From Marivita sp. S6314 (GTDB lineage: Bacteria > Pseudomonadota > Alphaproteobacteria > Rhodobacterales > Rhodobacteraceae), in contig NZ_JALKAO010000006.1 in the NCBI RefSeq assembly GCF_023015985.1, forward strand, positions 124,001 through 188,000: a stretch of DNA of 64,000 nt. Direction: 5' to 3'. Position numbers and translations under genes: made by a program. Of the stretch, positions 19,743 to 57,980 are shown one piece after another (position 1 is the stretch's first letter; every line of letters begins with the position of its first letter). Below the pieces are notes generated by a model. That model worked only from the letters and a program-made list of their open reading frames with translations, ran no database searches and was not told where the DNA came from.

Positions 19743-19813
19743 GACAAGTCCCGGTCATATGTAAAGATGCAGCGTTATTATAATTCCATAACCAAAACCT
19801 ATAGGCAGCAACC

Positions 19814-20677: not shown

Positions 20678-20719
20678 TCGAAAACCTCGGTCAGAACACG
20701 GATGCAATATAGCCGTAAC

Positions 20720-20733
20720 CTATCAATCAATAG
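20720..20733. promoter_or_regulatory. Imperfect palindrome in the LysR-phnW intergenic region
   Basis: CTATCAATCAATAG is an imperfect dyad with CTAT and ATAG ends, in the AT-rich gap between the divergent lysR and phnW genes. It fits the general form of a LysR-type half-site pair, but no family-specific consensus was tested. Confidence 0.35.
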
Positions 20734-20802
20734 AAAACAAAGATTTTACATATGCCCGGATGGGCCTCATATCCGATGTCAGAACAGCATTGGAAATCTG
20801 CC

Positions 20803-21984: not shown

Positions 21985-21994
21985 AGGACCAGAC

Positions 21995-23254
21995 ATGCCC
22001 ATTACAAACCCCGTGGTCGCCAACGACCGCACCTACGCCATCCCGAAAACCTGCGCGATTGCGATCTGTCTGGATGGCTGTGAACCCGAATACCTTGAGG
22101 TTGCGATTGCTGAAGGCCTGATGCCCACGCTCAAACGCATCCGCGAAACCGGGACAGACCGTCTCGCCCATTCGGTGATCCCAAGTTTCACCAACCCCAA
22201 CAACATGAGCATCGCCACAGGCCGCCCGCCAAGCGTCCACGGCATCTGCGGCAACTTCCTGTATGATCCCGAAACGGGTGAGGAGGTGATGATGAACGAC
22301 GTCCGCTTCCTGCGCGCGCCAACGATCTTCTCCAAATACTACGAAGCAGGCGCGCGCGTTGCCGTTGTGACCGCCAAGGACAAACTGCGTGCTCTCTTGG
22401 GGGCAGGTCTCAAATTCAATGAGGACCGCGCCATCGCGTTCTCGACCGAAAAATCCGACACCACCACCAAGGCCGAACACGGCATCGACAACGCCAGCGC
22501 CTGGATGGGCCTGCCGGTGCCAGAGGTCTATTCCTCGGAACTCAGCGAATTCGTCTTCGCCGCCGGCGTGAAGCTGCTCAAGGAATGGAAGCCGGACGTG
22601 ATGTACCTGTCCACAACAGACTACATCCAGCACAAATTCGCCCCCAATGAGGCGGGCGCAAAAGACTTCTACGCGATGTTCGACACATACCTCGCCGAAC
22701 TCGACGCAATGGGCGCAGCCATCGTCGTCACCGCCGACCACGGTATGAAGCCCAAGCACGACGCCAATGGCGACCCAGCCGTGATCTATGTGCAGGACGT
22801 GCTGGACGACTGGCTTGGCGAAGCTGCCGCGCGGGTGATCCTGCCGATCACCGACCCGTACGTCGTGCACCACGGGGCATTGGGTGCATTTGCGACAGCC
22901 TACCTGCCCGACGGCGCAGACCACGCCGACATCATCGCGCGCCTGTCTGCTTTGCCGGAAATGCTCGAAGTTGTGCGCAAGGCCACCGCCGTCCAGAAAT
23001 ACGACCTGCCCCCGGACCGCATCGGCGACATCGTGATGATTTCGACCGAGAACATGACCATCGGCACCTCCGCCCACCGCCACGACCTTGCCGCCCTCAA
23101 GGAACCCCTGCGCAGCCATGGCGGGCTGACCGAACAGGAGGTCCCGTTCATCGTGAACCGCAAGATCGACCTGCCCAACGCCCCCACGCTCCGCAATTTC
23201 GACGCGTTCTTCTACGCCACCGCCGCAGCAGCCCTGGAAGAGGTGGACGCATGA
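21995..23254 (+). CDS. phnA: Phosphonoacetate hydrolase (PhnA)
   Basis: This 419-residue zinc enzyme of the alkaline phosphatase superfamily hydrolyses phosphonoacetate to acetate and Pi. Every catalytic residue I can recall from the Sinorhizobium meliloti enzyme is present, shifted by two positions: D27 and T66 (nucleophile, in [13 protein letters not shown]), D209 and H213 (TTDYIQHKF), D248 and H249 (TADHG), and H375 (RSHGG). It is distinct from the unrelated E. coli gene also called phnA. Its stop overlaps the phnY start by four bases. With PhnW and PhnY it completes a route from AEP to acetate and Pi that does not need C-P lyase. Confidence 0.96.
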
Positions 23255-24690
23255 CCGAAATCCGTCACGACCAGATGCGCATCGGCGGTGAAAAGGTGGA
23301 TACCAAAGACCGCCTCGAAGTCCGCTACCCCTACACGAACGAGGTGATTGGCACCGTCCCCATGGGCACCGCCGAACATGCGCGCAAAGCCTTCGAGATT
23401 GCGGCGAACTACCAATCCAAACTCACCCGCTACGAACGCAGCCAGATCCTGCAACGCACCGGGGAAATTATCGGCGAACGCCGCGACTACCTTGCCAAAT
23501 GGCTGACGCTGGAACTGGGCATCTGCCACCAGCACAGCCTCTACGAGACCAAGCGCGCGCAGGACGTTTACCAATTCGCCGCCGCAGAGGCGCTCAAGGA
23601 CGATGGCGAGATTTTCTCCTGTGACCTCACCCACAACGGCAAGGCGCGCAAGATCTTCACCATGCGCGAACCCGTGCGGGCGATCAGCGCCATCACCCCG
23701 TTCAACCACCCGCTCAACATGGTCAGCCACAAGATCGCCCCGTCGATTGCGACGAACAACTGCATGGTGTGCAAACCGACGGAACTGACGCCGCTCACCG
23801 CGCTGACGTTGGCAGATATCCTTTACGAGGCGGGCCTGCCACCCGAGATGTTCCAGGTCGTCACCGGAATGCCCGCCGATATCGGCGACGAAATGGTGAC
23901 GAACGACAACATCGACATCATCACCTTCACCGGCGGTGTGCCTGTGGGCAAACTCATCGCGTCCAAGGCAGGCTACAAACGCACCGCGCTCGAACTTGGC
24001 GGTAACGATCCCCTGATCATCTGCAACGACCTGAGCGATGCAGACCTCGACCAAGCCGCGACCATCGCCGTTGCCGGGGCCACCGGCAATTCCGGCCAAC
24101 GCTGCACGGCAATCAAGCGTATCTTGGTGCAGGAAAGCGTCGCGGACAAGTTTGTGCCACTGGTGGTCGAGAAAGCCAAAAAGATCAAATTCGGCGACCC
24201 ACAAGACCCTGCCACAGAACTCGGCTGCGTGATCCACGCCCAAGCCGCCGAACTCTTCGAAAAGCGCGTTCTGATGGCCGCCGATCTAGGTGCCAACATC
24301 CTCTACCATCCAGAACGCCAAGGCGCACTCCTTCCGCCCATCGTGGTGGATCATGTCCCGCACGACTCAGAGTTGGTGATGGAAGAAACCTTCGGCCCCA
24401 TCATCCCCATCGTGCGCGTGCCGGACGACGACACCGAGGTCATGCGCATCTCCAACAGCACCGATTTCGGCCTCTCCTCAGGCGTCTGCACCAACGACCT
24501 GAACCGCGCGATTGCCTATATCAACGGTCTCAACGTCGGCACCTGCAATATCTGGGAACAGCCGGGCTACCGCATCGAAATGTCCCCCTTCGGCGGCATC
24601 AAGGACAGCGGCAACGGCGTGAAGGAAGGCGTGATCGAAGCGATGAAGTTCTTCACCAACGTCAAAACCTATTCCCTGCCGTGGCCTTAA
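23251..24690 (+). CDS. phnY: Phosphonoacetaldehyde dehydrogenase (PhnY)
   Basis: The 479-residue NAD-dependent aldehyde dehydrogenase oxidises phosphonoacetaldehyde to phosphonoacetate. The catalytic cysteine C285 lies in [10 protein letters not shown] and the general-base glutamate E248 in ALELGGNDP; the Rossmann glycine segment is [10 protein letters not shown]. Its placement between phnA and tmpA, with ATGA overlap upstream and a ten-base overlap with the next start, assigns the function. It would also use aldehyde made by PbfA, so it lies at the junction of the two AEP entry routes. General succinate-semialdehyde-type activity cannot be ruled out from sequence alone. Confidence 0.93.
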
Positions 24691-25799
24691 AATCGGCCGA
24701 TATCATCGCGGATGGTGACGCCATCCGCGCAAAGTGGGCCGATGGCATGTCGGCCCGCTTCCACGCGATCTGGCTGCGGGACAACGCCCAAGACGAGGCC
24801 ACGCGTGACGCCGGAAATGGCCAGCGCCTCATCGCACTGTCCGAGATACCCAGCGGCATTCGCGTGACAGGCGCAAAGTCGCATGGTGATGTGCTGAACG
24901 TCACGTTCTCCAACGGCCATGTGACCCGCTTTCCGGAAGACTGGCTGCGCACCCACGCCTATGATCGCGCTCACGTGGCAACCCCATGGTCCGACGCCAT
25001 CACGCTTTGGCGCGGTGATCACACAATCCGTTGCGCCGGGTTGGGCGACTTGCAGTCAAATCCGGACGCTCTGCGCCAATGGCTCGCCGCCGTGCGCCGC
25101 GACGGGGTGGCCAAGGTTCACGGTCTGCCAACCACCTCTGGCAGTCTTGAAAAGGTGGTCAACCTCTTCGGCTATATCCGCGAAACCAACTATGGCCGCT
25201 GGTTCGAGGTCCGGTCCGAGATCAACCCGACGAACCTCGCTTACACCAATCTTGGCCTGCAAGCGCACACCGACAACCCGTACCGCGATCCGGTGCCGGG
25301 TTTGCAGATCCTGGCGTGTCTGGAAAATACCGTCGAAGGCGGCGAGAGCGGTGTGGTTGATGGCTTCGCCGCCGCCGAAACTCTGCGTCAGGAAAACCCC
25401 GACGGCTTTGAAGCCCTTGCCCGCTATCCGGCCCGGTTCGAATATGCCGGGTCCTCGGGCGTGCGTCTGACCTCAAAACGCCCCGTCATCGAACGCAATC
25501 CTGACGGCGAAGTCATTGCGATCCGCTTCAACAACCGCTCCATGGCGGCCGTCACCGACATCCCGTTTGACGACATGGGTGTCTGGTACGCCGCGCTGCG
25601 CCGCCTTGGCGAGATCATAGACGCGCCTGACAGCCAGATCACATTTCGCCTTGATCCCGGAGAGGCCTTCATCGTCGACAACACCCGCGTCCTGCATGCC
25701 CGCAATGCCTTTTCGTCGGGCGGAATGCGGTGGTTGCAAGGGTGCTACGCCGACAAGGACGGGCTGTTGTCCACCCTTTCGACATTGGAGGCGTCATGA
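24681..25799 (+). CDS. tmpA: TmpA-like Fe(II)/2-oxoglutarate dioxygenase (2-trimethylaminoethylphosphonate hydroxylase)
   Basis: The 372-residue protein has an N-terminal DUF971/GBBH-like domain (about 1-100) and a TauD-type dioxygenase domain with the iron triad H196, D198 ([11 protein letters not shown]) and H339 (RVLHARNAF). Gamma-butyrobetaine hydroxylases share this layout, but position directly before a PhnZ-type HD oxygenase and after phnWAY points to TmpA. TmpA hydroxylates trimethyl-AEP to (R)-1-hydroxy-trimethyl-AEP. The zinc-binding cysteine cluster that follows WLRDN in butyrobetaine hydroxylase is absent ([12 protein letters not shown] instead). The start is GTG 24681, inside the end of phnY. 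The stop overlaps the tmpB start. Carnitine-type substrates remain the alternative. Confidence 0.8.
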
Positions 25800-26356
25800 C
25801 GCCAACCCGCGAAAACATCGTTGCCTTCATCGCCGACATCTTTGAACGGCGCGGGGCCGAAAGCTATTTGGGCGAACCCGTGACAATGGCCCAGCACATG
25901 CTGCAAGGCGCGAAACTGGCCGAAGACGCGGGCGCGCCCGACGAACTGATCGCGGCGGCCTTGCTCCACGACATCGGCCATTACACCTCGGAATTCGGCC
26001 CCTATTCGCCGGACGATACCGAGGACAATCACCATGATGAAGCCGGGGCAGACGTGCTGAAGCATTTCTTCCCGCCCGTGATCGTGGATTGTGTGCGCCT
26101 GCATGTTGCCGCGAAACGGTATCTTTGCGCCACCGACCCCGGCTACTTTGACAAGCTGTCCGAAGCTTCAGTGCACACGCTTGAGCTTCAAGGCGGCCCG
26201 ATGAATTATCAGGAAGTCGCCGCATTCGAGGCAGTGCCGCATTTTCGCGAAGCGGTCCGCGTGCGCCTTTGGGACGAAGGCGGCAAAGACCCCGACATGA
26301 CAACCCCACCCTTCAGTCACTATATTCCGCTGCTGGAACGTGTGGCCCATGCTTGA
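25796..26356 (+). CDS. tmpB: TmpB/PhnZ-like HD-domain mixed-valent diiron oxygenase
   Basis: This 186-residue HD-domain protein cleaves the C-P bond of an alpha-hydroxyphosphonate with O2, giving Pi and a carboxylate. Residues match PhnZ closely: Y24, E27, H34, H58, D59, H80, H103, K107 and D160 correspond to PhnZ Y24, E27, H34, H58, D59, H80, H104, K108 and D161. Paired with TmpA it should turn hydroxylated trimethyl-AEP into glycine betaine and Pi. With 2-amino-1-hydroxyethylphosphonate the product would be glycine. ATG 25796 overlaps the tmpA TGA by four bases. Assignment as TmpB rather than PhnZ rests on the TmpA partner; sequence does not settle preference for the methylated amine. Confidence 0.82.
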
Positions 26357-27698
26357 GCGCCACACAGAAGGCGAAGCCAACACCAGCGCCGCGCGGGCGG
26401 AATGGTCAGCCCGCGAAACGCACAACGAAACGCGTGATCTTCTTGCCCGGGACGCAAACGCGTTTCTGCACCAGTCGCTGTCCTCTCCCTGCCTGAGCAC
26501 CATCGCCAAGGCCGAAGGCATCTGGATCGAAGACACATCAGGCCGTCGGTTCATGGATTTCCACGGCAACTCCGTCCACCACATCGGCTACGGCCATCCA
26601 CGCCTTGTTCAGGCGGTCAAGGACCAGATCGACGCGCTGCCCTTCTCGCCCCGCCGGTTCACCAATGACGTCTCTGTCACGCTGGCCGAACGGCTTGGCG
26701 CGCTGGCCCCCGGCGACCTGAGCAAGGTGCTTTTCACAACCGGCGGCTCCGACGCGGTCGAAGTCGCCCTGCGTCTTGCCCGTGCCGCAACCGGCAGATT
26801 CAAAACCATCAGCTTCTGGGATGCCTTCCACGGCGCCGGCTTTGGTGCGTCCAGTGTGGGTGGCGAAGCCACATTCCGCAGCCACATCGCCGGGCCACTT
26901 TTGCCCGGGGCAGAGCATGTCGCGCCCTTTCACTGCTACCATTGCGCCTACGGGCATCCGGGGCCCGACAGTTGCGGTCTGGCCTGCGCCAAGATGGTCG
27001 AGTTTGCCTTGCAACGCGAAGGCGATGTGGCTGCGGTGATTGCGGAACCAATGCGGGCCGTCCCGGTCGTGCCCCCGCCCGGCTACTGGCAGGCCGTGCA
27101 AGCGGCCTGTCACAAACATGGCGCGCTGCTGATCATGGATGAAATCCCGACGGGCCTTGGCAAGACGGGCAAGATGTTCGCCTATGATCATGATGCCATT
27201 CAGCCCGACATCGTGGTGTTGGGCAAAGCCCTTGGCGGCGGCATGCTGCCCCTTGCGGCGGTCATTGCGCGGCACGATCTGGATGTCGTCGGTGACTACG
27301 CCATCGGGCATTACACGCACGAAAAAAACCCGATCACAGCCCGAGCGGCGCTGACCACGCTGGATATCATCGAAGAGGAAGGGTTGGTCGACCGGGCCGC
27401 ACATCTTGGCGCACATGCACAAGACCGTCTGCAAAGCGACCTGCACACCCACCCCCATGTCGGAGACATCCGCGGGCGTGGCCTGATGTTCGGGATCGAG
27501 ATCGTGACCGACCGGGACAGCCGCACCCCCGATCCCGACCGCGCTGAGCGTATCTATTATTCCTGCCTTGAACAGGGGCTTAGCTTCAAGATCAGCGCAA
27601 GCAATGTGCTGACGCTGTCGCCGCCGATGACGATCGACAAGACAGATCTCAACACCGCCCTCTCTATCGTCATTGACGCCATCAAGGCCCATTCGTGA
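26349..27698 (+). CDS. pbfA: PbfA-like (R)-1-hydroxy-2-aminoethylphosphonate ammonia-lyase
   Basis: This 449-residue fold-type I PLP protein of the class III aminotransferase family has D264 (IMDEIPTGLGKTG) and the Schiff-base lysine K293 (VLGKALGGGML). Such proteins in AEP clusters, formerly called aminotransferases, include PbfA. PbfA eliminates ammonia from (R)-1-hydroxy-2-aminoethylphosphonate to give phosphonoacetaldehyde, the substrate of PhnY. A CYHCAYGHPGPDSCGLAC segment (residues 196-213) has four cysteines, as seen in related lyases such as ethanolamine-phosphate phospho-lyase. The ATG at 26349 overlaps tmpB by eight bases. A true transaminase is the alternative, but PhnW already fills that role here. 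Confidence 0.78.
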   Translation: MLERHTEGEANTSAARAEWSARETHNETRDLLARDANAFLHQSLSSPCLSTIAKAEGIWIEDTSGRRFMDFHGNSVHHIGYGHPRLVQAVKDQIDALPFSPRRFTNDVSVTLAERLGALAPGDLSKVLFTTGGSDAVEVALRLARAATGRFKTISFWDAFHGAGFGASSVGGEATFRSHIAGPLLPGAEHVAPFHCYHCAYGHPGPDSCGLACAKMVEFALQREGDVAAVIAEPMRAVPVVPPPGYWQAVQAACHKHGALLIMDEIPTGLGKTGKMFAYDHDAIQPDIVVLGKALGGGMLPLAAVIARHDLDVVGDYAIGHYTHEKNPITARAALTTLDIIEEEGLVDRAAHLGAHAQDRLQSDLHTHPHVGDIRGRGLMFGIEIVTDRDSRTPDPDRAERIYYSCLEQGLSFKISASNVLTLSPPMTIDKTDLNTALSIVIDAIKAHS

Positions 27699-28522
27699 GC
27701 CCTGCCGTTCTCGGCATTGTTCTGTTGGCCGCGCTGTTACACGCGCTTTGGAACGCGCTGGTCAAAGCCTCTGGTGACAGGACAGTCACGCTTGGTCTCA
27801 TCGCGCTAGGCCATTGCCTGCCCGCGATCCTGTTGCTGCCCTTCGTGCCAATCCCGAACGGTGTCGCCTTTTGGTACATCGCCGCGTCAACGGTCATCCA
27901 TTGGGCCTATTACTATTTCCTGAATATCTCTTACCGGTTCGGCGACCTGTCGCTTGTCTATCCGATTGCGCGCGGTGCCGCGCCCGTGATGGTGGCGTTG
28001 GGTGCCATGATCTGGGCCGACGAGACACTGGGCTGGATCGCCTGGTCTGGCATCCTTGCCATCTCGGCAGGTATCATGGTGTTGGCCACGGTGCGGAATG
28101 CAGACAAACGCGGCATCGGGGCAGCACTCCTGACATCGGCAATCATTGCCGCCTATTCGATCGTCGATGGGATCGGCATTCGCGCGTCTGGCACACCGGT
28201 GGGATATGTTGTCTGGCTCTTTGCCGCCGAAATCTGCGTCGCGGTCTTTGTTATGGCGTCGCGGGTTGAACGTTACCGCGCGATGGCCCTAAAAACCCAG
28301 ATGCTTGGTTTGACGGGTGGTGTAATTTCAGGTTTGGCGTATGGTCTTGCACTCTTTGCCAAGACACTTGCCCCGATTGGCATTGTTTCGGCGGTCCGCG
28401 AAACGTCGGTGATCTTTGCCGCGCTGATCGGCGTCATCTACATGGGCGAAGGCCCCGCACACCGCCGTCTTCTGGCCGCTGCTATTGTCGCAACGGGCGT
28501 GATGATCCTCGCGCTCTACTGA
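27695..28522 (+). CDS. DMT/EamA-family membrane transporter
   Basis: This 275-residue protein has ten predicted hydrophobic helices forming two EamA repeats, with the characteristic N-terminal LLAALLHALWNALVKAS and a conserved glutamate in MIWADETLGWIAW. The start is a GTG at 27695 overlapping the pbfA stop by four bases, so it belongs to the phosphonate operon. Members export or import small metabolites. Here it may carry an AEP derivative inward or a pathway by-product outward; direction cannot be read from the sequence. Confidence 0.85.
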   Translation: MSPAVLGIVLLAALLHALWNALVKASGDRTVTLGLIALGHCLPAILLLPFVPIPNGVAFWYIAASTVIHWAYYYFLNISYRFGDLSLVYPIARGAAPVMVALGAMIWADETLGWIAWSGILAISAGIMVLATVRNADKRGIGAALLTSAIIAAYSIVDGIGIRASGTPVGYVVWLFAAEICVAVFVMASRVERYRAMALKTQMLGLTGGVISGLAYGLALFAKTLAPIGIVSAVRETSVIFAALIGVIYMGEGPAHRRLLAAAIVATGVMILALY

Positions 28523-28538
28523 AAACCGATCCGTTTAT

Positions 28539-30209
28539 ATGCAAATTCTCATCTTCCTCCTTCATCTAGCCGGTGCTGTCCTGCTTCTCCTGTTTGCCGT
28601 CCGCATGGTCCGCACAGGCATTGAGCGGGCCTTGGGGCCACGCCTGCACCGCACGGTCAGTCGGCCAAGATCACCGCTGACGATGATGGCCTCTGGGCTG
28701 GTGATGGCGATGATCCTGCAAAGCTCTGCGGCGGTCACGTTGTTGGTGGCGGGTTTTGCCGGAACAGGTGGTGTGGGCTTTGTGCCGGGATTGGCCATGG
28801 TTCTGGGTGGCGACCTGGGGTCAGCCTTGCTGATCATGCTGTTGTCCCTGCGTGTCGAAACGCTTGTGCCACTTTTGTTGACTCTGGGCGGATTGCTGTT
28901 TCTGAAATCCCAGACCCGCAGTTGGAAACAGGCCGGACGCATCATTCTGGGGATCGCATTGATCCTGATCGCGCTCAGATACCTGCGCGAAGCGGTTGAA
29001 CCAATTCGGGACAGTGCGGTCCTGCCTGCGCTTGCCGCCTATTTCGAACGCGACTTTGTGACCGCGTTTATCACCGGTGCGGCCTTGGCCTTTGTCATGC
29101 ACAGCTCGGTCGCCACGATCCTGATGACAGTGGCTGTGGTGGGCATGGGCGCGCTGCCGCTTGCCGCTGGGGTGTCCATTGTGTTGGGCGCAAATCTTGG
29201 CTCTGCGGTGATCCCTGTCTGGCTGACGCGCAATACCGATCCGGCGACCCGGCGCATTCCCTTGGCCAACCTGATGCTGCGCGGCTGTGCGGCCATCGCA
29301 GCGGCCATTGCAATCGACGCGTTCGGCGTGCCACCGCAGTTTGACTCGCTTGGCAACGGTGCCACGCTTGTTGTCGTCCATATCGCGTTCAATACACTGG
29401 TGCTTGGTTTGATATTCTGCGCCTTGCCGGTCGAGGCGCTGCTGTTGAAGCTGCTTCCCGATCTGACGACGGCGCGCGACATCAAACCGCTTCATAAGTC
29501 GCATCTTGATCCCGGCACCACCGATGTCCCCGTTCGCGCGCTGGCCTGCCTGCGCCGCGAAGTGATCCGCATGGCCGATGTGCTGTCCGAGATGTTTGCC
29601 CCGACGATGGAACTCTACCAATCCTTCGACGACACACGCGCGCAGGCGATCACCCAAGAAGACAAGGTCCTCAACACCGCGCTTAATGAAATCCGCGTCT
29701 TTGCGGCCGACCTTCCACATCACGCGATGCAAAAGGAAGAAAAACGCGAACTGCGCGCGCTTGTCGATTACGCGATTGCACTGGAAGCGTGTGGCGATTT
29801 GCTGGTCAAACGCCTGCTGCCTCTTGCACGGGAAAAATCGGAAAACGGGCTTCAGTTTTCCAGCGACGGGTTTCTGGAGCTTTCAGACATGCACGCCCGC
29901 GTCAGTCAGAACCTTGCAACCGCGTCCAGCGTTCTTGTCAGCAATGACCTGTCCGGTGCCCGGCTGTTGCTGGAACAGAAGACCGACATTGCCCGATTGG
30001 AACGCAAGACACGCAAGTCGCATCTGAAACGCCTCAACGCCGGGAACGAGGACAGCTTTGAGTCCAGTGATGTGCATATCGAAACAGCCTACACGCTGAA
30101 AGAAATACACTCGTGGATTGTGACCGTGGCCCACCCGATTCTGCGCCGCGAGGGCCAGCTTCTGGACAGCCGTCTTGCCGAAACTGCGACCGATCCAAAG
30201 TCAGGTTGA
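28539..30209 (+). CDS. Na+/phosphate cotransporter family protein with PhoU-like C-terminal domain
   Basis: The 556-residue protein has an N-terminal membrane part with two PNaS repeats marked by MILQSSAAVTLL (about residue 60) and VMHSSVATILM (about residue 187). A helical PhoU-like domain starts near residue 330 and includes a long charged coiled-coil. NptA/YjbB-type proteins move phosphate, and E. coli YjbB has been described as an exporter. It is 16 bases after the DMT gene at the end of the phosphonate operon, so I infer it handles excess Pi released by PhnA and TmpB. Its stop overlaps the end of the convergent rpiR-type gene by nine bases. Confidence 0.82.
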   Translation: MQILIFLLHLAGAVLLLLFAVRMVRTGIERALGPRLHRTVSRPRSPLTMMASGLVMAMILQSSAAVTLLVAGFAGTGGVGFVPGLAMVLGGDLGSALLIMLLSLRVETLVPLLLTLGGLLFLKSQTRSWKQAGRIILGIALILIALRYLREAVEPIRDSAVLPALAAYFERDFVTAFITGAALAFVMHSSVATILMTVAVVGMGALPLAAGVSIVLGANLGSAVIPVWLTRNTDPATRRIPLANLMLRGCAAIAAAIAIDAFGVPPQFDSLGNGATLVVVHIAFNTLVLGLIFCALPVEALLLKLLPDLTTARDIKPLHKSHLDPGTTDVPVRALACLRREVIRMADVLSEMFAPTMELYQSFDDTRAQAITQEDKVLNTALNEIRVFAADLPHHAMQKEEKRELRALVDYAIALEACGDLLVKRLLPLAREKSENGLQFSSDGFLELSDMHARVSQNLATASSVLVSNDLSGARLLLEQKTDIARLERKTRKSHLKRLNAGNEDSFESSDVHIETAYTLKEIHSWIVTVAHPILRREGQLLDSRLAETATDPKSG

Positions 30210-31082
30210 TTTGCGAAAGATCCGCGTGGATTGGAACATGTCTTCCAAGGCTTCCATCCGGTCCTGCGCGCTGTCCGCAACGCGGGTCTGCACTTCGGCG
30301 ATCAAAGCCTCGATCACCAGATTGATCGCAAGGGTCGAATCCCAGCTTGATGGCACCTCGATCAGCGCGTTCACCACGTGATCCGCAAGGTGCGATATCG
30401 GTGATCCCCATTGGTCGGTGAACAGAACAAGTTCAGCCCCTCGCTCTTTGGCCAATTCGGACAGTCGTTTCAGATCCCGTTCATACCGTCGGATGTCGAA
30501 AACGATCAGGACCGACTGTTGGTCCATGTCCAGAATATACTGCGGCCACACATTCGGTGAAGCCCCAAGCAGGGTCACACCGGGCCGGATGATCTGAAGA
30601 TGGTTGTACAGGTAATCCGCGTTGGACCGCGTGATCCGTCCACCCGTCAGATAGACCCGCCGTTCGGTATCCGCCAGAACACCGGCCAACGCATCAAGCC
30701 GGCCCGGTTCAAGCCGGTCGATGGTCCGGCTCAGGTTGTCAAAGACGGCTTCGGCAAAGGCTTTGAAGGCCGCTGATCCGGGTTTGGTGTCATCCCACCC
30801 GTCACGTTTGCGGATGGGCGTCTTGAACTGGGCCGATGCTTCCTCTCGCATGGCGGCCTGCAGTTCAGGGAATCCGTCGAATCCAAGCTTGCGTGCCAGG
30901 CGGATGACGGTTGGCGTAGACACCCCTGCGGCCTCTGCAATCTTGGTGATCGATTGCAGCCCCCCAACCGGGTAATCGCGCATCAAAACGCCGGTCAATT
31001 GTCGCTCTGCCGGGGTCAGCGCGGCGGCCTGATCCTGAAGACGGTCTTTGACGGAAAGGGGCTTTGGCATCGGTCTGCCCAT
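30201..31082 (-). CDS. RpiR/MurR-family regulator
   Basis: This 293-residue regulator has an N-terminal HTH_6 domain (LTPAERQLTGVLMRDYP ... VSTPTVIRLARKLGF) and a C-terminal SIS domain (about residues 125-265) of the type that binds a phosphosugar or other small ligand. It is divergent from the HutG-like/TRAP operon with a 68-base gap that contains a TGTAG-N6-CTACA dyad, the usual form for RpiR operators. ATG 31082 has no strong ribosome site; ATG 31070 is an alternative. It most likely regulates the amidohydrolase, TRAP and ligase operon and itself. Confidence 0.87.
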   Translation of the reverse strand: MGRPMPKPLSVKDRLQDQAAALTPAERQLTGVLMRDYPVGGLQSITKIAEAAGVSTPTVIRLARKLGFDGFPELQAAMREEASAQFKTPIRKRDGWDDTKPGSAAFKAFAEAVFDNLSRTIDRLEPGRLDALAGVLADTERRVYLTGGRITRSNADYLYNHLQIIRPGVTLLGASPNVWPQYILDMDQQSVLIVFDIRRYERDLKRLSELAKERGAELVLFTDQWGSPISHLADHVVNALIEVPSSWDSTLAINLVIEALIAEVQTRVADSAQDRMEALEDMFQSTRIFRKST

Positions 31083-31085
31083 GTT

Positions 31086-31101
31086 TGTAGCAATTTCTAC
31101 A
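31086..31101. promoter_or_regulatory. Candidate RpiR operator
   Basis: TGTAGCAATTTCTACA is a dyad with perfect 5-base arms and a 6-base centre. It starts four bases from the rpiR start and lies 50 bases before the divergent HutG-like gene. The TGTAG/CTACA form resembles HexR- and RpiR-type sites. Confidence 0.55.
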
Positions 31102-31150
31102 GATTGCCAAATTGCAGTAAATATTTCAACCAAAATAGCTTGACAGGTCT

Positions 31151-31945
31151 TTGACCACCTCGCCTAATGCCAGCGTGAGCACCGCTGATCTTCATACGAT
31201 TCTGAGCATCGACGAAGGCCCCGCCGCCGAGGTTATCAATCCCGACGGCGCGGCACCTGTGTGCCTTGTGTGCGAACATGCCAGCGCGTTTATCCCGGCC
31301 TCCTTGAAGGATCTGGGCGTGTCTCCGGACCAGCGCTTCAGCCATGCCGCGTGGGATATTGGCGGCCGGGATCTGGCGATGGCATTGTCACACGCGCTGG
31401 ATGCCCCTTTGGTCGCCTCCCGCGTGTCGCGATTGGTCTATGACTGCAATCGCCCGCCCAGCGCGCCAGACGCCATTCCGGCGAAATCCGAAGTGATCAA
31501 CGTGCCGGGCAACGCACATCTTGGCGAAGCGGACCGGGTTGCGCGCATTGCCGAAGTCTACCACCCGTTCCGGCAGACGCTGCACACCACGCTTGACGGG
31601 TTCGTATCGCCGCCAACTTTGGTCACGATCCACTCCTTCACGCCGGTCTGGCACGGTCAGAAACGCGATGTGCAGCTTGGCCTGCTGCATGACAGCGATG
31701 ATCGTTTGGCCAAAGCCATGCTGGACGCCGCCCCGAATGGCGTTAACACGCAGCTGAACGCACCCTATTCCGTCACCGACGGGGTCACACATACGCTGCG
31801 CGAACACGCGATCACCCGAGGTTTGCAAAACGTGATGATCGAAGTGCGCAACGATCTGATTTCCGACCCAAACGGCGTCGCCCGCTTTGCCGAGATCCTG
31901 ACCGATATGCTGACACATGCGCTTGCAATGCAGAGGGCCACATGA
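31151..31945 (+). CDS. N-formylglutamate amidohydrolase family protein
   Basis: This 264-residue metallohydrolase of the FGase family has VCEHASAFIPASL near residue 41, TIHSFTPVWHG around residue 160 and VMIEVRND near residue 225, the expected metal and substrate segments. HutG members release glutamate from N-formylglutamate. No histidine-utilisation genes are nearby. Instead it heads an operon with a TRAP transporter, a glutamine-synthetase-like ligase, an aldehyde dehydrogenase and an alcohol dehydrogenase. I therefore infer hydrolysis of a gamma-glutamyl amide. The start is TTG 31151 after AGG; a GTG at 31175 is also in frame. The stop overlaps the TRAP small-subunit start by four bases. 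Confidence 0.78.
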   Translation: MTTSPNASVSTADLHTILSIDEGPAAEVINPDGAAPVCLVCEHASAFIPASLKDLGVSPDQRFSHAAWDIGGRDLAMALSHALDAPLVASRVSRLVYDCNRPPSAPDAIPAKSEVINVPGNAHLGEADRVARIAEVYHPFRQTLHTTLDGFVSPPTLVTIHSFTPVWHGQKRDVQLGLLHDSDDRLAKAMLDAAPNGVNTQLNAPYSVTDGVTHTLREHAITRGLQNVMIEVRNDLISDPNGVARFAEILTDMLTHALAMQRAT

Positions 31946-32523
31946 CTGGGCTTCTGAAACGCTATGTCGCACTGATCGATCCGCTGAACCGCGTGATCGG
32001 ACGCATCGTGATGTACGGCATTTTCGTGATGATGGGCATTCTGCTGTGGTCTTCGATTTCCAAGACCTTCTTTCTGCCGTCACTTTGGACGCTTGAAATG
32101 GCGCAGTTCGCAATGGTGGCTTACTATATCCTTGGTGGGCCGTATGCGATCCAGATGGGGTCAAACGTACGGATGGACCTGATCTACGGCGAGGTTTCGG
32201 ACCGCCGCAAAGCGATGATCGACGCTGTGACCGTGGTGTTCCTGTTGGTCTATCTCGGGTTCCTTTTTTACGGCGGTGTTGCCTCGACCGCCTATTCACT
32301 GGGGTATTTCGGGTCTGAACCCATCGGCTTTTTCGCCGGGCTTATCACCGGGGAGGCCGAAATGGGTTTCCTCGAACGCAGCCCAACCGCGTGGCGTCCC
32401 TATCTTTGGCCCATCAAGACCATCATGGTCCTCGGCATCTTCCTGATGCTGCTGCAAGTCCTCTGCGAACTGGCAAAAGACATCCTGCGCCTGCAGGGGC
32501 ACGACATGGGGGCCAAGGTCTGA
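31942..32523 (+). CDS. TRAP transporter small membrane subunit (DctQ-like)
   Basis: The 193-residue protein has four hydrophobic helices and the LWTLEMAQFAMVAYYILGGPYAIQ core of DctQ subunits. It forms the small part of a sodium-driven TRAP importer with the DctM-like protein that follows, whose start overlaps its stop by one base. It is slightly longer than typical (about 160-180 residues) because of a loop around residues 120-150. The solute is defined by the binding protein downstream, not by this subunit. Confidence 0.92.
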   Translation: MTGLLKRYVALIDPLNRVIGRIVMYGIFVMMGILLWSSISKTFFLPSLWTLEMAQFAMVAYYILGGPYAIQMGSNVRMDLIYGEVSDRRKAMIDAVTVVFLLVYLGFLFYGGVASTAYSLGYFGSEPIGFFAGLITGEAEMGFLERSPTAWRPYLWPIKTIMVLGIFLMLLQVLCELAKDILRLQGHDMGAKV

Positions 32524-33848
32524 TGCCGTACGAGCTGATCGCCATCCTCATGTTCTCGACCATGATGCTGATGCTGCTCACCGGGCAGCGTGTGTTTGGC
32601 GCGATTGGTTTTGTCGCCGTGGTCGCGGCGTTCCTGCTCTGGGGCGACCGGGGTGGGTACGACCTTGGCTTTTCCGCCGCGATGAAGCTGATGAAATGGT
32701 ATCCGCTGCTCACCCTGCCGATGTTCATTTTCATGGGTTACATCCTCAGCGAAAGCCGCATCGCGGACGATTTGTATAAAATGTTCCACGTCTGGATGGG
32801 CGGCCTCTCCGGGGGCCTTGCCGTGGGCACCATCGGCCTCATGGTTCTGATCTCTGCCATGAACGGATTGTCCGTCGCAGGCATGGCCATTGGCGCCACC
32901 ATCGCCCTGCCCGAACTGCTCCGGCGAGGATATGACAAACGGATGGTCACCGGGGTCATACAAGCCGGGTCCTCCCTCGGCATCTTGGTCCCGCCATCGG
33001 TCGTGCTGGTCCTCTACGCCATGATCGCCCGCCAACCCGTTGGCCAACTCTGGCTTGCAGGCGTAATCCCCGGCCTGATGATGGCCGCGATGTTCATTAT
33101 CTACATCACGATCCGCTGCAAACTGAACCCATCCCTCGGCCCGATCCTGCCCAAAGAGGAACGGGACATCCCCAAGGCCGAAAAATACCGTCTCCTCGCA
33201 GCAGGCCTCCTGCCGCTGGCCATCTTTTTCGTGATGATGGTGCCCTTCGTGAACGGCTGGACCTCCCTCGTCGAAAGCTCTGCTATCGGCGCGTTGGCCG
33301 CCATGCTCGCCGCGATCCTCAAAGGCCGCATGACACGCGAGGTGTTCGAGAACTCTGTCCGACAAACGCTGGGCATCTCCTGCATGTTTATGTGGATCAT
33401 CCTCGCCGCCCTCGCGTTCGGCGCAGTCTTCGACGGCCTCGGCGCGGTGAAGGCCATCGAAAGCCTGTTCACCGAACAGCTTGGCCTGAACCCGTGGGTG
33501 ATCCTGATCCTGATGCAACTCAGCTTCATCATCATGGGCACATTCCTCGATGACACAGCCATGCTGGTGATCGTCGCACCGCTATACGTGCCCCTCGTCG
33601 GAGAACTTGGCTTCAACCTGATCTGGTACGGCATCCTCTACACGATCACGACCCAGATCGCCTACATGACCCCGCCCTTCGGCTATAACCTCTTCCTGAT
33701 GCGCGCCATGGCCCCACCCGAGATCGGCCTGCGCGACATCTACACCTCGATCATCCCGTTCGTGCTGGTGATGGTCTGCGCCCTTGCCATCGTCATGATC
33801 TTCCCGGAAATCGCCCTTTGGTTGCCCGGGCTCGTCTACGGAAATTAA
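32523..33848 (+). CDS. TRAP transporter large membrane subunit (DctM-like)
   Basis: This 441-residue protein of about twelve helices has DctM-family segments LPMFIFMGYILSES, GLSVAGMAIGATIALPELLRRGYDK, AGSSLGILVPPSVVLVLYAMI and TFLDDTAMLVIVAPL. It is the sodium-coupled channel of the importer. ATG 32523 was chosen because it overlaps the DctQ stop (TGATG); open frame upstream of it lies within dctQ. Confidence 0.95.
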   Translation: MPYELIAILMFSTMMLMLLTGQRVFGAIGFVAVVAAFLLWGDRGGYDLGFSAAMKLMKWYPLLTLPMFIFMGYILSESRIADDLYKMFHVWMGGLSGGLAVGTIGLMVLISAMNGLSVAGMAIGATIALPELLRRGYDKRMVTGVIQAGSSLGILVPPSVVLVLYAMIARQPVGQLWLAGVIPGLMMAAMFIIYITIRCKLNPSLGPILPKEERDIPKAEKYRLLAAGLLPLAIFFVMMVPFVNGWTSLVESSAIGALAAMLAAILKGRMTREVFENSVRQTLGISCMFMWIILAALAFGAVFDGLGAVKAIESLFTEQLGLNPWVILILMQLSFIIMGTFLDDTAMLVIVAPLYVPLVGELGFNLIWYGILYTITTQIAYMTPPFGYNLFLMRAMAPPEIGLRDIYTSIIPFVLVMVCALAIVMIFPEIALWLPGLVYGN

Positions 33849-33902
33849 CCCAGAAGACCCCGGTCAAACGGGGCATTTCAACCCAACTGAGAGGATTTGA
33901 AA

Positions 33903-34937
33903 ATGACCACAAGACGTAAGTTCCTGAAAACCGCCGGCGTCGCAGCCGCCGCTGCCCCATTGGCCGCGCCCGCGATTGCCCAATCCACCATCACATGGCG
34001 CATGCAGACCTATGCTGGCGCGGCACTGGCCGAGCACGTGATCGACCCCGCGATCGAGATGTTCAACAAGATCGCAGGCGACCGCATGCAGATCGAGTTG
34101 TTCTACGCCGACCAGCTTGTCCCGACAGGCGAGTTGTTCCAGGCGATGCAGCGCGGCACCATCGACGCGGTGCAGTCGGACGATGACTCCATGGCGTCTC
34201 CCACCGAAGTCACCGTCTTTGGCGGCTACTTCCCGTTCGGCTCCCGCTACTCGCTCGACGTGCCGGTGCTCTTCAACCAGTACGGCCTGAACGAGATCTG
34301 GGACGAGGAATATTCCAAGGTCGGCGTCAAACACATCAGCGCGGGCGCATGGGACCCGTGCCATTTCGCCACCAAAGACCCGATCCGCTCCCTTGCAGAC
34401 CTGCAAGGCAAGCGCGTCTTTACCTTCCCAACCGCTGGCCGCTTCATGAGCCAGTTTGGTGTCATCCCGGTGACCCTGCCGTGGGAAGATATCGAAGTGG
34501 CAATGCAGACCGGCGAACTCGACGGCATCGCGTGGTCCGGCATTACCGAAGACTACACCGTCGGCTGGGCGGACGTGACCAACTACTTCCTGACCAACAA
34601 CATCTCGGGCGCATGGGCCGGGTCGTTCTTTGCCAATATGGAGCGCTGGAACGAGCTGCCGGAAGACCTGCAAACCCTGTTCCGTGTCTGTTGTGACCAG
34701 TCGCACTACTACCGCCAGTGGTGGTACTGGGGTGGCGAAGCCAACCTGCGCGTCAACGGCACCAAGCTTGAACTGACATCGATCCCCGATGACGAATGGG
34801 CCACGGTCGAGGCCGCCGCGCGCGTTTTCTGGGACGAGATCGCCGCCGAAAGCCCGACAAAAGCGAAGGTGGTCGATATCTTCAAGCAGTACAATTCCGA
34901 TATGGAAAAGGCGGGCCGTCCGTATCGCTACACCTAA
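33903..34937 (+). CDS. TRAP transporter solute-binding protein, Tat-exported (DctP/TakP-like)
   Basis: This 344-residue periplasmic protein begins with a twin-arginine signal (TTRRKFLKTAG, cleavage near AIAQS, residue 26). Its core is a DctP-family binding protein of the TakP-like subgroup, with ISAGAWDPCHFATKDPIRSLADLQGKR and a C-terminal VFWDEIAAES region. The usual carboxylate-binding arginine is not evident in FPTAGRFMSQFGV beyond R158-type positions, so an uncharged or cationic ligand is possible. An AGAGG ribosome site precedes ATG 33903. With the following ligase and dehydrogenases I infer an amino alcohol such as ethanolamine as ligand; organic acids are the conventional alternative. 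Confidence 0.88.
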   Translation: MTTRRKFLKTAGVAAAAAPLAAPAIAQSTITWRMQTYAGAALAEHVIDPAIEMFNKIAGDRMQIELFYADQLVPTGELFQAMQRGTIDAVQSDDDSMASPTEVTVFGGYFPFGSRYSLDVPVLFNQYGLNEIWDEEYSKVGVKHISAGAWDPCHFATKDPIRSLADLQGKRVFTFPTAGRFMSQFGVIPVTLPWEDIEVAMQTGELDGIAWSGITEDYTVGWADVTNYFLTNNISGAWAGSFFANMERWNELPEDLQTLFRVCCDQSHYYRQWWYWGGEANLRVNGTKLELTSIPDDEWATVEAAARVFWDEIAAESPTKAKVVDIFKQYNSDMEKAGRPYRYT

Positions 34938-34947
34938 CGGCAAATCT

Positions 34948-35015
34948 GGTCCCTTGGCTTGTTCAAGGGGCCATTTTGCGTCAACGCAAAACCGAGAACC
35001 CGTCAACGGGTTCTC
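34948..35015 (+). other. Three tandem stem-loops after the TRAP binding-protein gene
   Basis: Stem 1 is GGTCCCTTG (34948-34956) with CAAGGGGCC (34964-34972). Stem 2 is TTTTGCG (34974-34980), loop TCAA, CGCAAAA (34985-34991). Stem 3 is GAGAACCCG (34994-35002), loop TCAA, CGGGTTCTC (35007-35015). None is followed by a T run, and a strong AAGGAGG ribosome site for the next gene comes shortly after. They look like RNA stability or processing elements. Confidence 0.75.
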
Positions 35016-35038
35016 CACTGACCACCCAAGGAGGCCCT

Positions 35039-36391
35039 ATGACCCTTGATGACCTGCAAGCCCTCGCCGAGACGGGTGAGATCGACACCGTCCTTGTCTG
35101 CATGGTTGACATGCAGGGCCGCCTGATGGGCAAACGGTTCCACGTGTCGAACTTCCTAGAGTCCGCGTGGAAAGAAACCCACTGCTGCAATTACCTCCTC
35201 GCCACTGACCTCGAAATGGCCACCCCCGACGGCTACAAATCCACGAGTTGGGAAGCAGGCTACGGCGACTACGTGATGAAGCCCGACATGGACACACTGC
35301 GCCCCATGCCATGGCTCGACGGCACCGCGATGGTGTTGTGCGACATTATCGATCACCACACGCACGAACCCGTCCCGCATTCCCCCCGCCAGATGCTGAA
35401 GAAACAGGTGGACCGCCTGACCGAGATGGGCCTGACGCCCATGATGGCGACCGAACTTGAATTCTTCCTGTTCGAAAGCTCTTTCGATACCATCCGCAAA
35501 GGCGGCTTCCGCGATCTTGCCCCGATCAGCGGCTATAACGAAGATTACAACATCCTCCAGACCACCCGCGAAGAACATGTGATGCGCCCGATCCGCAATC
35601 ATCTCTTTGCCGCCGGTGTGCCTGTCGAGAACTCCAAGGGTGAGGCGGAAACAGGTCAGGAAGAGCTCAACATCCGCTACGCCGATGCTGTCGCCTGCGC
35701 GGACAACCACACCATCGCGAAACACGCGGTCAAGGAAATCGCCCATATGCAGGGCCACGCCGTGACCTTCATGCCCAAATGGCGCGCCGACAAAGTGGGC
35801 AGCGCCGCGCATGTGCATCAGTCCCTGTTCAAGGGCGACACCAACATTTTCCACGACGCAAACGCGCCGCTCACCATGTCGGACACGATGAAATCCTACG
35901 TCGCGGGCCTCATCAAATACGCCCCTGACATGACAGTGTTCCTTGCGCCTTACGTCAACAGCTACAAACGCTTCCTCGCGGGCACCTTTGCGCCAACCAA
36001 AATCGCATGGTCCGTCGACAACCGCACCGCAGGCTATCGTCTAGTTGGCGACGGTACCAAAGGCGTGCGCATCGAATGCCGCATCCCCGGCTCGGACATC
36101 AACCCCTACCTCGCCTGCGCCGCGCAACTCGCTGCGGGCATTAAAGGGATGGAGGAAAAGCTGTCGCTCGAAGACCCTGTGTCTGGTGACGTCTACAACA
36201 TGACAGGCGTGCCCGAGATTCCCAACACCCTGCGCGCGGCAACCGAAGCCCTGCGCACCTCAACCATGTTGCGCGAAGCCATGGGCGACGACGTGATTGA
36301 CCACTACACGCGCTGTGCCGAAGTCGAACAGGAGATGTTTGACGCCGCCGTCACCGACTGGGAAATCCAGCGCGGATTTGAAAGAGCCTGA
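35039..36391 (+). CDS. Glutamine-synthetase-family gamma-glutamyl ligase (PuuA/GlnA4-like)
   Basis: The 450-residue enzyme has the GS fold: a beta-grasp N-domain with MVDMQGRLMGKR, and a catalytic domain with metal glutamates in MATELEFFLFES, a histidine in GSAAHVHQSL, and NSYKRFLAGTFAPTKIAWSVDNRTAGYR. Proteins of this kind attach glutamate to amines (putrescine by PuuA, ethanolamine by Streptomyces GlnA4) rather than to ammonia. AAGGAGG lies seven bases before ATG 35039. The next genes are an aldehyde dehydrogenase (three bases on) and an iron alcohol dehydrogenase. No amine oxidase is present, so an amino alcohol is a more natural substrate than a diamine. The substrate is inferred. Confidence 0.82.
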   Translation: MTLDDLQALAETGEIDTVLVCMVDMQGRLMGKRFHVSNFLESAWKETHCCNYLLATDLEMATPDGYKSTSWEAGYGDYVMKPDMDTLRPMPWLDGTAMVLCDIIDHHTHEPVPHSPRQMLKKQVDRLTEMGLTPMMATELEFFLFESSFDTIRKGGFRDLAPISGYNEDYNILQTTREEHVMRPIRNHLFAAGVPVENSKGEAETGQEELNIRYADAVACADNHTIAKHAVKEIAHMQGHAVTFMPKWRADKVGSAAHVHQSLFKGDTNIFHDANAPLTMSDTMKSYVAGLIKYAPDMTVFLAPYVNSYKRFLAGTFAPTKIAWSVDNRTAGYRLVGDGTKGVRIECRIPGSDINPYLACAAQLAAGIKGMEEKLSLEDPVSGDVYNMTGVPEIPNTLRAATEALRTSTMLREAMGDDVIDHYTRCAEVEQEMFDAAVTDWEIQRGFERA

Positions 36392-36394
36392 CCT

Positions 36395-37771
36395 ATGACC
36401 AAAACAGTTGACCTCATCTCGCCCATCGACGGGTCAGTCTACCTCACCCGCGACGTGCTGACCCAGGACGCCGCCCTTGCCGCCGCCCAGCGCGCGAAAG
36501 AGGCCCAAGCCGCATGGGTCGCGCGCCCGGTGTCTGACCGCATCGCGATGGTGCGCAAAGCGGCCGAGATCATCGGCACACAACAAGACCGCATGACAAC
36601 CGAAATCGCGCATCAGATGGGCCGACCCATCCGCTATGGAGGCGAATTTGGCGGGTTCAACGAACGTCTGACCTATATGGCGGACGTCGCCGAAGACGCG
36701 CTCGCGCCGATGGAAATCGAAGACAGCGACCAATTCCGCCGCCTGATCAAGCGCGTGCCATGGGGCACCGTCATGGTCATCGCGCCGTGGAACTACCCCT
36801 ATATGACTGCGATCAACACGGTGGCCCCCGCGCTTATCGCGGGCAACACGGTGATCCTGAAACACGCGGGCCAAACGCTGAAGGTAGGCGAACACCTGGC
36901 AGAGGCGTTCCACGACGCGGGCATTCCAAAAGACGTGTTTCAAAATCTTGTCCTCGACCATGACACAACGTCTGCCTTGCTATCCAGCAAAGCTGTCGAT
37001 TTCGTTAATTTCACCGGCTCCGTTGGCGGCGGCCAGGCCATCGAACGCGCCGCCGCTGGCACCTTCATGCCCGTCTCAACCGAACTGGGCGGCAAAGACC
37101 CCGGCTATGTCCGCGCCGACGCCGATCTCGACGCAGCCGTCGATACCCTGCTCGACGGTGCGATGTTCAACGCGGGCCAATGCTGCTGCGGGATCGAACG
37201 CATTTACGTGCACGAAAACCTCTACGACCAATTCGTCGAAAAAGCCGTTGCTTGGGTCAACGCCCAAACCCTCGGCAACCCGCTCGACCCCGACACAACG
37301 ATGGGCCCCATGGCCCACAAACGCTTCGCTGCAGAGGTGCGCGCGCAGATCGACGAGGCCGTTGCGCAAGGCGCAAAAGCCCATATCGACACTATGCCAG
37401 CCGACGATGGCGGCGCATACCTCACCCCACAAATCCTCACCAATGTCACTCACGACATGCGCGTCATGCGCGACGAAAGCTTTGGCCCCGTCGTCGGCAT
37501 CATGCCGGTCAAGGACGATACCGAGGCGATCCAACTCATGAATGACAGCCAATTCGGCCTGACCGCCTCTATCTGGTCTAAAGACGCCACAAAAGCCGAA
37601 GAGATCGCCGACCAGATCGAAACCGGCACCGTGTTCCTGAACCGTTGTGACTACCTTGACCCCGCCCTGTGCTGGACCGGCTGCAAAGACACCGGACGCG
37701 GGCAAGGCCTGTCAAAACTCGCATATCAGGCTCTGACACGGCCCAAATCCTACCACCTCAAGAAAGCATAA
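36395..37771 (+). CDS. NAD(P)-dependent aldehyde dehydrogenase
   Basis: This 458-residue aldehyde dehydrogenase of the succinate-semialdehyde-like group has the catalytic cysteine in NAGQCCCGIERIY, the base glutamate in TELGGKDPGYV and the nucleotide loop NFTGSVGGGQA. Length and fold are complete. It is three bases after the glutamyl ligase and four before the alcohol dehydrogenase, so the three act together. I infer oxidation of a gamma-glutamyl-aminoaldehyde to the gamma-glutamyl amino acid. The CCC triplet at the active site is unusual but includes the expected position. Confidence 0.88.
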   Translation: MTKTVDLISPIDGSVYLTRDVLTQDAALAAAQRAKEAQAAWVARPVSDRIAMVRKAAEIIGTQQDRMTTEIAHQMGRPIRYGGEFGGFNERLTYMADVAEDALAPMEIEDSDQFRRLIKRVPWGTVMVIAPWNYPYMTAINTVAPALIAGNTVILKHAGQTLKVGEHLAEAFHDAGIPKDVFQNLVLDHDTTSALLSSKAVDFVNFTGSVGGGQAIERAAAGTFMPVSTELGGKDPGYVRADADLDAAVDTLLDGAMFNAGQCCCGIERIYVHENLYDQFVEKAVAWVNAQTLGNPLDPDTTMGPMAHKRFAAEVRAQIDEAVAQGAKAHIDTMPADDGGAYLTPQILTNVTHDMRVMRDESFGPVVGIMPVKDDTEAIQLMNDSQFGLTASIWSKDATKAEEIADQIETGTVFLNRCDYLDPALCWTGCKDTGRGQGLSKLAYQALTRPKSYHLKKA

Positions 37772-37775
37772 TACC

Positions 37776-38921
37776 ATGAGCCTCACCGCAAACTGGTCCT
37801 ACCCCACTGCCATCCGCTTCGGCGCTGGGCGCATGTCGGAAATCGCCGAGGCCTGCATTGCCGCGAACATCACCAAACCTCTGCTGGTCACGGATCGCGG
37901 GTTGGCCAACATGGATATCACCACCAAAACGCTCGACCTGATTGAACAGGCGGGCCTCGGTCGCGCGATCTTTGCGGATGTGGATCCGAACCCGAATGAA
38001 AAGAACGTCGAAGACGGTTTGAAGGTCTACCGCGAAGGCGGGTTCGATGGCGTCATTGCCTTCGGCGGCGGCTCAGGACTCGATCTGGCCAAGACACTCG
38101 CCTTCATGGCGGGTCAATCCCGCCCGCTCTGGGATTTCGAAGACATCGGCGACTGGTGGACCCGCGCTGACCCCGACGGCATCCACCCCATCGTTGCCGT
38201 GCCCACCACTGCTGGCACCGGGTCCGAAGTGGGCCGCGCCAGCGTGATCACCAATTCCGAGACGCATGAGAAGAAGATCATTTTCCACCCCAAGATGCTC
38301 CCCGCCGTTGTCATCTGCGACCCAGAGCTGACGGTAGGAATGCCCAAGTTCATCACCGCAGGCACCGGCCTTGATGCCTTCGCCCATTGTGTCGAGGCGT
38401 TCAGCAGCCCGCATTATCACCCCATGAGCCAGGGCATCGCCTTGGAGGGTATGAAGCTGGTCATCGACAACCTGCCAACCGCTTACAACGATCCCACCAA
38501 CATCGACGCCCGCGCCAATATGATGAGCGCAGCGGCCATGGGCGCAACCGCCTTCCAAAAGGGCCTCGGCGCGATCCACGCCATGTCCCACCCCATCGGC
38601 GCGCATCACCATACGCACCATGGCACCACCAACGCCGTGTGCATGCCCGTGGTCCTCAAGTTCAACGCGCATGCCATCCACGATCGGTTTGATCTTGCGG
38701 CGGGGTATCTTGGCATCGACGGAGGCTTCGACGGCTTCCGAAAGTTTGTCGATGGGTTCAATGAGAGCTTTGGGATCCCGAAAACCCTCACCGACCTGGG
38801 CGTCAAAGACCCCGATCTTGATGTACTGGTCCGCGACGCTTTGAAAGACCCAAGCACTAGCGGCAACCCGGTGGAAATGAACGCGTCCAACACGCGCAAG
38901 CTTTTTGAAGCGGTGCTCTGA
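37776..38921 (+). CDS. Iron-containing (group III) alcohol dehydrogenase
   Basis: The 381-residue enzyme has the NAD-binding GGGSGLDLAKTLAF, PTTAGTGSEVGRASV, and the metal ligands in TGLDAFAHCVEAF (D and H) and AMSHPIGAHHHTHHG (two H). It oxidises primary alcohols or reduces aldehydes. As the last gene of the operon after the ligase and aldehyde dehydrogenase, I infer it oxidises the hydroxyl of a gamma-glutamylated amino alcohol. Reverse operation as an aldehyde reductase cannot be excluded. The five-histidine stretch near residue 273 includes the usual two metal histidines. Confidence 0.9.
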   Translation: MSLTANWSYPTAIRFGAGRMSEIAEACIAANITKPLLVTDRGLANMDITTKTLDLIEQAGLGRAIFADVDPNPNEKNVEDGLKVYREGGFDGVIAFGGGSGLDLAKTLAFMAGQSRPLWDFEDIGDWWTRADPDGIHPIVAVPTTAGTGSEVGRASVITNSETHEKKIIFHPKMLPAVVICDPELTVGMPKFITAGTGLDAFAHCVEAFSSPHYHPMSQGIALEGMKLVIDNLPTAYNDPTNIDARANMMSAAAMGATAFQKGLGAIHAMSHPIGAHHHTHHGTTNAVCMPVVLKFNAHAIHDRFDLAAGYLGIDGGFDGFRKFVDGFNESFGIPKTLTDLGVKDPDLDVLVRDALKDPSTSGNPVEMNASNTRKLFEAVL

Positions 38922-52762: not shown

Positions 52763-52765
52763 GGC

Positions 52766-54040: not shown

Positions 54041-54072
54041 TGGGATAGTCCTTTCAGACGTAGCAAGAGGAT

Positions 54073-54094
54073 CGCGCCCCGAGTTCGGGGCGCG
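54073..54094. other. Strong GC stem-loop between soxG and glyA
   Basis: CGCGCCCC (54073-54080) pairs with GGGGCGCG (54087-54094) around GAGTTC. It lies in the operon between soxG and glyA. No T run follows on the minus strand, so it may partly uncouple glyA expression or stabilise the upstream mRNA. Confidence 0.6.
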
Positions 54095-54118
54095 TTTCAA
54101 CATGAGCGTGAACGAAGG

Positions 54119-54649: not shown

Positions 54650-54662
54650 GGGTTTACCCTCC

Positions 54663-57967: not shown

Positions 57968-57980
57968 CGGGTATCCTCCC

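Follow-up and report, generated by a model that had tools for sequence, protein, structure and literature searches.

The question raised by a 64,000-nucleotide stretch of the Marivita sp. S6314 genome (the window) was which compound is imported and degraded by the eight-gene cluster at positions 30201–38921. An earlier interpretation of the letters (the sequence-only reading) had recognised there an importer, a glutamyl ligase, alcohol and aldehyde dehydrogenases and an amidohydrolase, and this content was confirmed by the coordinates and the Pfam families. All eight genes were present, one of them divergent on the minus strand and seven tightly packed on the plus strand. The cluster was identified, with a probability of about 0.92, as a predicted eto (ethanolamine gamma-glutamylation) operon for the import of ethanolamine, a membrane-lipid head group, and its breakdown to glycine and glutamate. 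In the proposed pathway ethanolamine would be brought in by a tripartite ATP-independent periplasmic (TRAP) transporter, EtoVWX, and coupled to glutamate by a glutamine-synthetase-like ligase using ATP. An iron-type alcohol dehydrogenase and an aldehyde dehydrogenase would then convert the alcohol, by way of the aldehyde, to gamma-glutamylglycine, from which a hydrolase of the FGase family would release glycine and glutamate for recycling. A divergent RpiR protein probably controls the operon.

The choice of ethanolamine as substrate draws on orthologues in a studied operon as well as on the logic of the enzyme families. This is the operon of Phaeobacter (Roseobacter) sp. MED193 (MED193_10021 to MED193_10056), for which the order RpiR, GGAH, EtoV, EtoW, EtoX, ETAGA, GAADDH, GETADH is given and the FGase gene is named gamma-glutamylglycine amidohydrolase (Westermann et al. 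2023, PMC10132767). In the window this eight-gene arrangement recurs in full, with no change of gene order or strand and with protein identities of 44–90% to the MED193 locus (L028). The RpiR-family regulator (30201–31133, minus strand; Pfam HTH_6 and SIS) is in the same place as its MED193 counterpart and 44% identical to it; its true start is uncertain, with TTG at the listed end and an internal ATG possible. The plus-strand genes begin with the FGase-family hydrolase, likely a gamma-glutamylglycine amidohydrolase (GGAH; 31151–31945; PF05013, 130.9 bits), which is 50% identical to MED193 GGAH over 231 residues. This is followed by the small TRAP permease DctQ (EtoV; 31942–32523; PF04290; 60% identity), the large permease DctM (EtoW; 32523–33848; PF06808; 71%) and the DctP-type binding protein EtoX (33897–34937; 90%). 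The last three genes encode the glutamine-synthetase-family ligase, likely an ethanolamine gamma-glutamylase (35039–36391; PF00120, Gln-synt_C; 70% to ETAGA), the aldehyde dehydrogenase, likely acting on gamma-glutamylacetaldehydeamide (36395–37771; PF00171, Aldedh; 71% to GAADDH), and the iron-type alcohol dehydrogenase, likely acting on gamma-glutamylethanolamide (37776–38921; PF00465 and PF25137, Fe-ADH and ADH_Fe_C; 72% to GETADH).

The gaps between the seven plus-strand genes were first measured as −4, 2, 48, 95, 3 and 4 bases. Moving the start of DctM to a better ATG at 32523, and that of the ligase to the ATG at 35039, which AGGAGG precedes, changed the second gap to −1 and the fourth to 101. 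The spacing is that of one operon. A mechanically derived ligase reading frame starting at 34796 was discarded as too long, 35039 being the best start. The window differs from MED193 in the glyoxalase and TetR genes that come after its operon, which had no match in the 17 kb of the MED193 locus.

On phosphorylethanolamine five of the eight MED193 operon proteins were increased, GGAH and ETAGA at P < 0.05 and EtoX, GAADDH and GETADH at P < 0.01, and MED193 EtoX bound ethanolamine with a dissociation constant of 7.9 ± 1.9 μM (PMC10132767). Ethanolamine binding by the binding protein and the rise of five operon proteins have thereby been shown experimentally for orthologues of the window genes.

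The binding protein gave the closest link to a solved structure. Window EtoX, which carries a twin-arginine translocation (Tat) signal (TAT_signal_seq, 24.4 bits against a cut-off of 16.7), matched the PDB 4UAB chain at 647.6 bits with 269 of 318 residues identical (85%), so that it lies close to two proteins with proven ethanolamine binding. The 4UAB structure shows Csal_0678 of Chromohalobacter salexigens in complex with ethanolamine, which is gripped by Glu220 (PMC12410723). Glu218 of the window protein, aligned with chain position 217 of 4UAB, would correspond to this residue, the three-residue offset presumably being one of numbering, and glutamate was found at position 218 in 100 of the 100 loci compared. 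Csal_0678 is described as being without the arginine with which typical TRAP proteins bind carboxylates (PMC4646407). In window EtoX the residue aligned with the arginine of three other TRAP binding proteins (4yzz, 2hzk and 7ug8) is Phe175, in a column that would be that of Arg-147 of SiaP, and across the 100 loci this position was Phe in 93 and Tyr in 7. The carboxylate-binding arginine thus appears to have been lost from the window protein, which speaks against specificity for organic acids, an outcome that the sequence-only reading had named as fatal to its proposal. Its proposal of gamma-glutamylated ethanolamine catabolism with a TRAP importer gains support from both the identity to 4UAB and the gene-for-gene match to MED193.

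The same chemistry could serve mainly another small amino alcohol, such as L-alaninol, 3-aminopropanol or serinol, with alanine or another amino acid and glutamate as products. The sequence of the 4UAB chain has a second PDB entry, 4XF5, presumably an amino-propanol complex, and the substrate specificity of the ligase and dehydrogenases is putative only. Against this stand the 85% and 90% identities of EtoX to two proteins of demonstrated ethanolamine binding and the effect of phosphorylethanolamine on the MED193 proteins (PMC10132767), which make a different main substrate very unlikely. Less probable still, the gene could encode a standard glutamine synthetase for ammonia assimilation, or a polyamine glutamylase, and lie next to an unrelated TRAP importer. 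The ligase belongs to that family and was detected by the models of type I GlnA (TIGR00653, 271.8 bits) and gamma-glutamylputrescine synthetase (NF045547, GGputSyn, 210.6 bits), but these scores, computed like its other Pfam, NCBIfam and PDB-chain scores from a start at 35033, two codons too early, are under the curated cut-offs of 429.15 and 650. The ligase was also under the cut-off of the type III glutamine synthetase model. Its best solved relative was 5DM3 at 696.6 bits, which we take to be the Chromohalobacter protein Csal_0679; 11ZS followed at 566 bits, and the next chain, called glutamine synthetase, reached 199.7. Csal0679 is entered as a putative glutamine synthetase in PMC5299690. 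The ligase gene also sits in a conserved operon with two dehydrogenases, and an ordinary glutamine synthetase or polyamine ligase, ruled out by the model cut-offs, was given hardly any weight.

An equally slight chance was allowed to the idea that the FGase gene encodes the N-formylglutamate deformylase of histidine breakdown (HutG) and stands here by accident. The name of the Pfam family favours it. An alignment of 77 hydrolases revealed His43, Asn100, Arg101, His161, Ser162 and Glu231 in common with HutG, residues that may have a catalytic or metal-binding role. On the HutG equivalog model TIGR02017 the window hydrolase scored only 20.1 bits, far below the cut-off of 278.75, whereas a second protein of the same genome, one of four places with PF05013, scored 364.4 bits and adjoins a histidine ammonia-lyase (HutH) above its own cut-off on another contig. 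By these scores the window hydrolase is not the HutG of this genome. It matched 2ODF (named Atu2144) at 222.8 bits. An FGase-like open reading frame (ORF) recurs in 76 of 80 eto loci, the misses being L012 and L029 (contig end) and, in uncut loci, L053 and L063. A chance HutG was ruled out on the model scores and on the presence of the gene beside EtoX in other genomes. The sequence-only reading had stated that no histidine-degradation genes accompany the hydrolase, which held for the 30 window proteins scanned, a part of its genes, but not for the genome, where HutG lies beside HutH.

That reading had also regarded a HutG-family final hydrolase as new, and here it was anticipated by the literature. 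For C. salexigens a 'gamma-glutamyl glycine amidohydrolase / formylglutamate amidohydrolase' of PF05013 is listed in Table 2 of PMC9397018, where SCO1615 is entered as the same hydrolase for Streptomyces, and a last step by an enzyme of the formylglutamate-amidohydrolase family is proposed in PMC6529630. Both papers cite Gerlt 2016 together with a FASEB abstract of 2015, and the naming of the hydrolase in these two and in PMC10132767 is annotation or proposal. The C. salexigens pathway (Csal_0678 and Csal_0679, a putative glutamine synthetase), compared with the window through its published listing rather than its locus, matches in the families PF00120, PF00465, PF00171 and PF05013 (PMC9397018), besides the 85% identical binding protein. 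The GlnA4 pathway of Streptomyces coelicolor (SCO1611–SCO1615), to which the sequence-only reading had pointed for similar ethanolamine chemistry, shares the ligase, two dehydrogenase steps and a proposed FGase-family final amidohydrolase, while it has a putative ethanolamine transporter gene and the EtuRI regulator in place of the TRAP importer and RpiR (PMC6529630). A figure legend of that paper labels orf2 as short-chain dehydrogenase and orf5 as glutamine amidotransferase.

Several points weigh against the assignment to ethanolamine. For the window organism we infer each catalytic step, the hydrolase substrate and the RpiR effector from orthologues, and the regulator and hydrolase are less conserved relative to MED193 (44 and 50%) than EtoX (90%). 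The rise of MED193 GGAH on phosphorylethanolamine reached only P < 0.05, MED193 EtoX was also up in the −P condition (2.14), and the pathway figure carries the heading 'predicted' (PMC10132767). The Chromohalobacter pathway is called 'demonstrated' in PMC10132767, which refers to Vetting et al., and 'predicted in an in silico approach' in PMC6529630. In addition, the ligase and dehydrogenase genes were missing from the available stretch of seven loci with EtoX (L003, L063, L073, L085, L086, L095 and L102), so that the transporter by itself is no proof of the pathway.

The conservation of the predicted eto operon was assessed in 80 close loci, the best 80 of at least 586 and to that extent a biased sample, which by their titles are mostly from roseobacter-type bacteria (taxonomy not checked singly). 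The complete eight-gene order was conserved in 68 of the 80, which makes a chance grouping unlikely. The twelve exceptions comprised five loci cut by contig ends (L029, L034, L042, L052 and L058), six in which at least one operon gene had no match in the stretch available (L003, L031, L053, L063, L068 and L073), and L012, which was cut upstream and also had no aldehyde dehydrogenase match. In L012 and L031 the ligase and alcohol dehydrogenase were present with no aldehyde dehydrogenase match between them. EtoX was detected at E ≤ 1e-100 in 107 of 198 sampled genomes of the family, the window's own included, and of these 107 a more distant set of 20 loci with lower EtoX identity (62–78%) was chosen. 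The full order was kept in 15 of the 20; L090 was without RpiR and GGAH, and L085, L086, L095 and L102 had the transporter genes only, the contig of L085 ending about 1.4 kb after EtoX.

No clear substitute ethanolamine enzyme was found among 14 distinct, hand-picked ORFs from five of the loci without pathway genes (L063, L085, L086, L095 and L102, with L003 and L073 left out) when these were scanned against Pfam or NCBIfam. They gave an adenine deaminase, a penicillin amidase, oxidoreductases of the FAD and pyridine-nucleotide types, YjbH and, below its cut-off, a glycerol-kinase-like protein, while others had no match; the ORFs were chosen by length, so unmatched ones may be on the wrong strand. 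In L085 (3679–5085) and L095 (318–4358) an EtoVWX-like transporter without pathway genes was located beside an FAD oxidoreductase, with the glycerol-kinase-like gene also present in L095, and the substrate of this transporter may be different.

The surroundings of the operon contain further metabolic genes. An aminophosphonate cluster at 18216–28522 includes PhnW, phosphonoacetate hydrolase PhnA, PhnY, TmpA, TmpB and PbfA (20752–27698, plus strand) above their NCBIfam cut-offs, and a LysR regulator, a PehA-like hydrolase and a phn_DUF6-like membrane protein below theirs. A gene resembling Na/Pi symporters lies between this cluster and the operon (28539–30209) and had a homologue of more than 40% identity in 9 of the 80 eto loci. 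SdaA, GlyA, SoxA and SoxB, of serine, glycine and sarcosine metabolism, were above their cut-offs at 51341–59234 on the minus strand. A distance of about 2.5 kb separates the operon from this gene array for 2-aminoethyl- and trimethylaminoethyl-phosphonate, and the serine, glycine and sarcosine genes are 12–20 kb beyond the operon. GlyA (52766–54103) and SdaA (51341–52762), suggested earlier as takers of the glycine formed, are present in the window but outside the operon, 12–15 kb away and on the other strand; such a use is conceivable. It was judged unlikely that the whole region acts as one island in which the head groups of lipids and phosphonates are converted to glycine and phosphate, perhaps under an RpiR that senses a gamma-glutamyl intermediate. 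At more than 40% identity TmpA and TmpB were found in 1 of the 80 eto loci and PhnW, PhnA, PhnY and PbfA in none, a count that a phosphonate-gene pairing further out would escape because the loci extend only about 4 kb beyond RpiR.

The operon is a correct but ordinary find, since it is a copy of a gene set already in print, of which the window supplies another well conserved example. Direct enzymology of the FGase-family hydrolase would be the useful thing to gain. The proposed route needs no B12, as the sequence-only reading had noted, and the large subunit of ethanolamine ammonia-lyase, EutB, was not found in the genome (99.99% complete; other eut genes not sought), in a search for which only E. 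coli was positive among 14 control genomes. The B12-dependent eut route was set aside on this result. Ethanolamine from membrane lipids has been argued to be a widely used marine source of nitrogen and carbon (PMC10132767), and with EtoX in more than half of the genomes sampled, this route without B12 is probably widespread in the family to which the window organism belongs.

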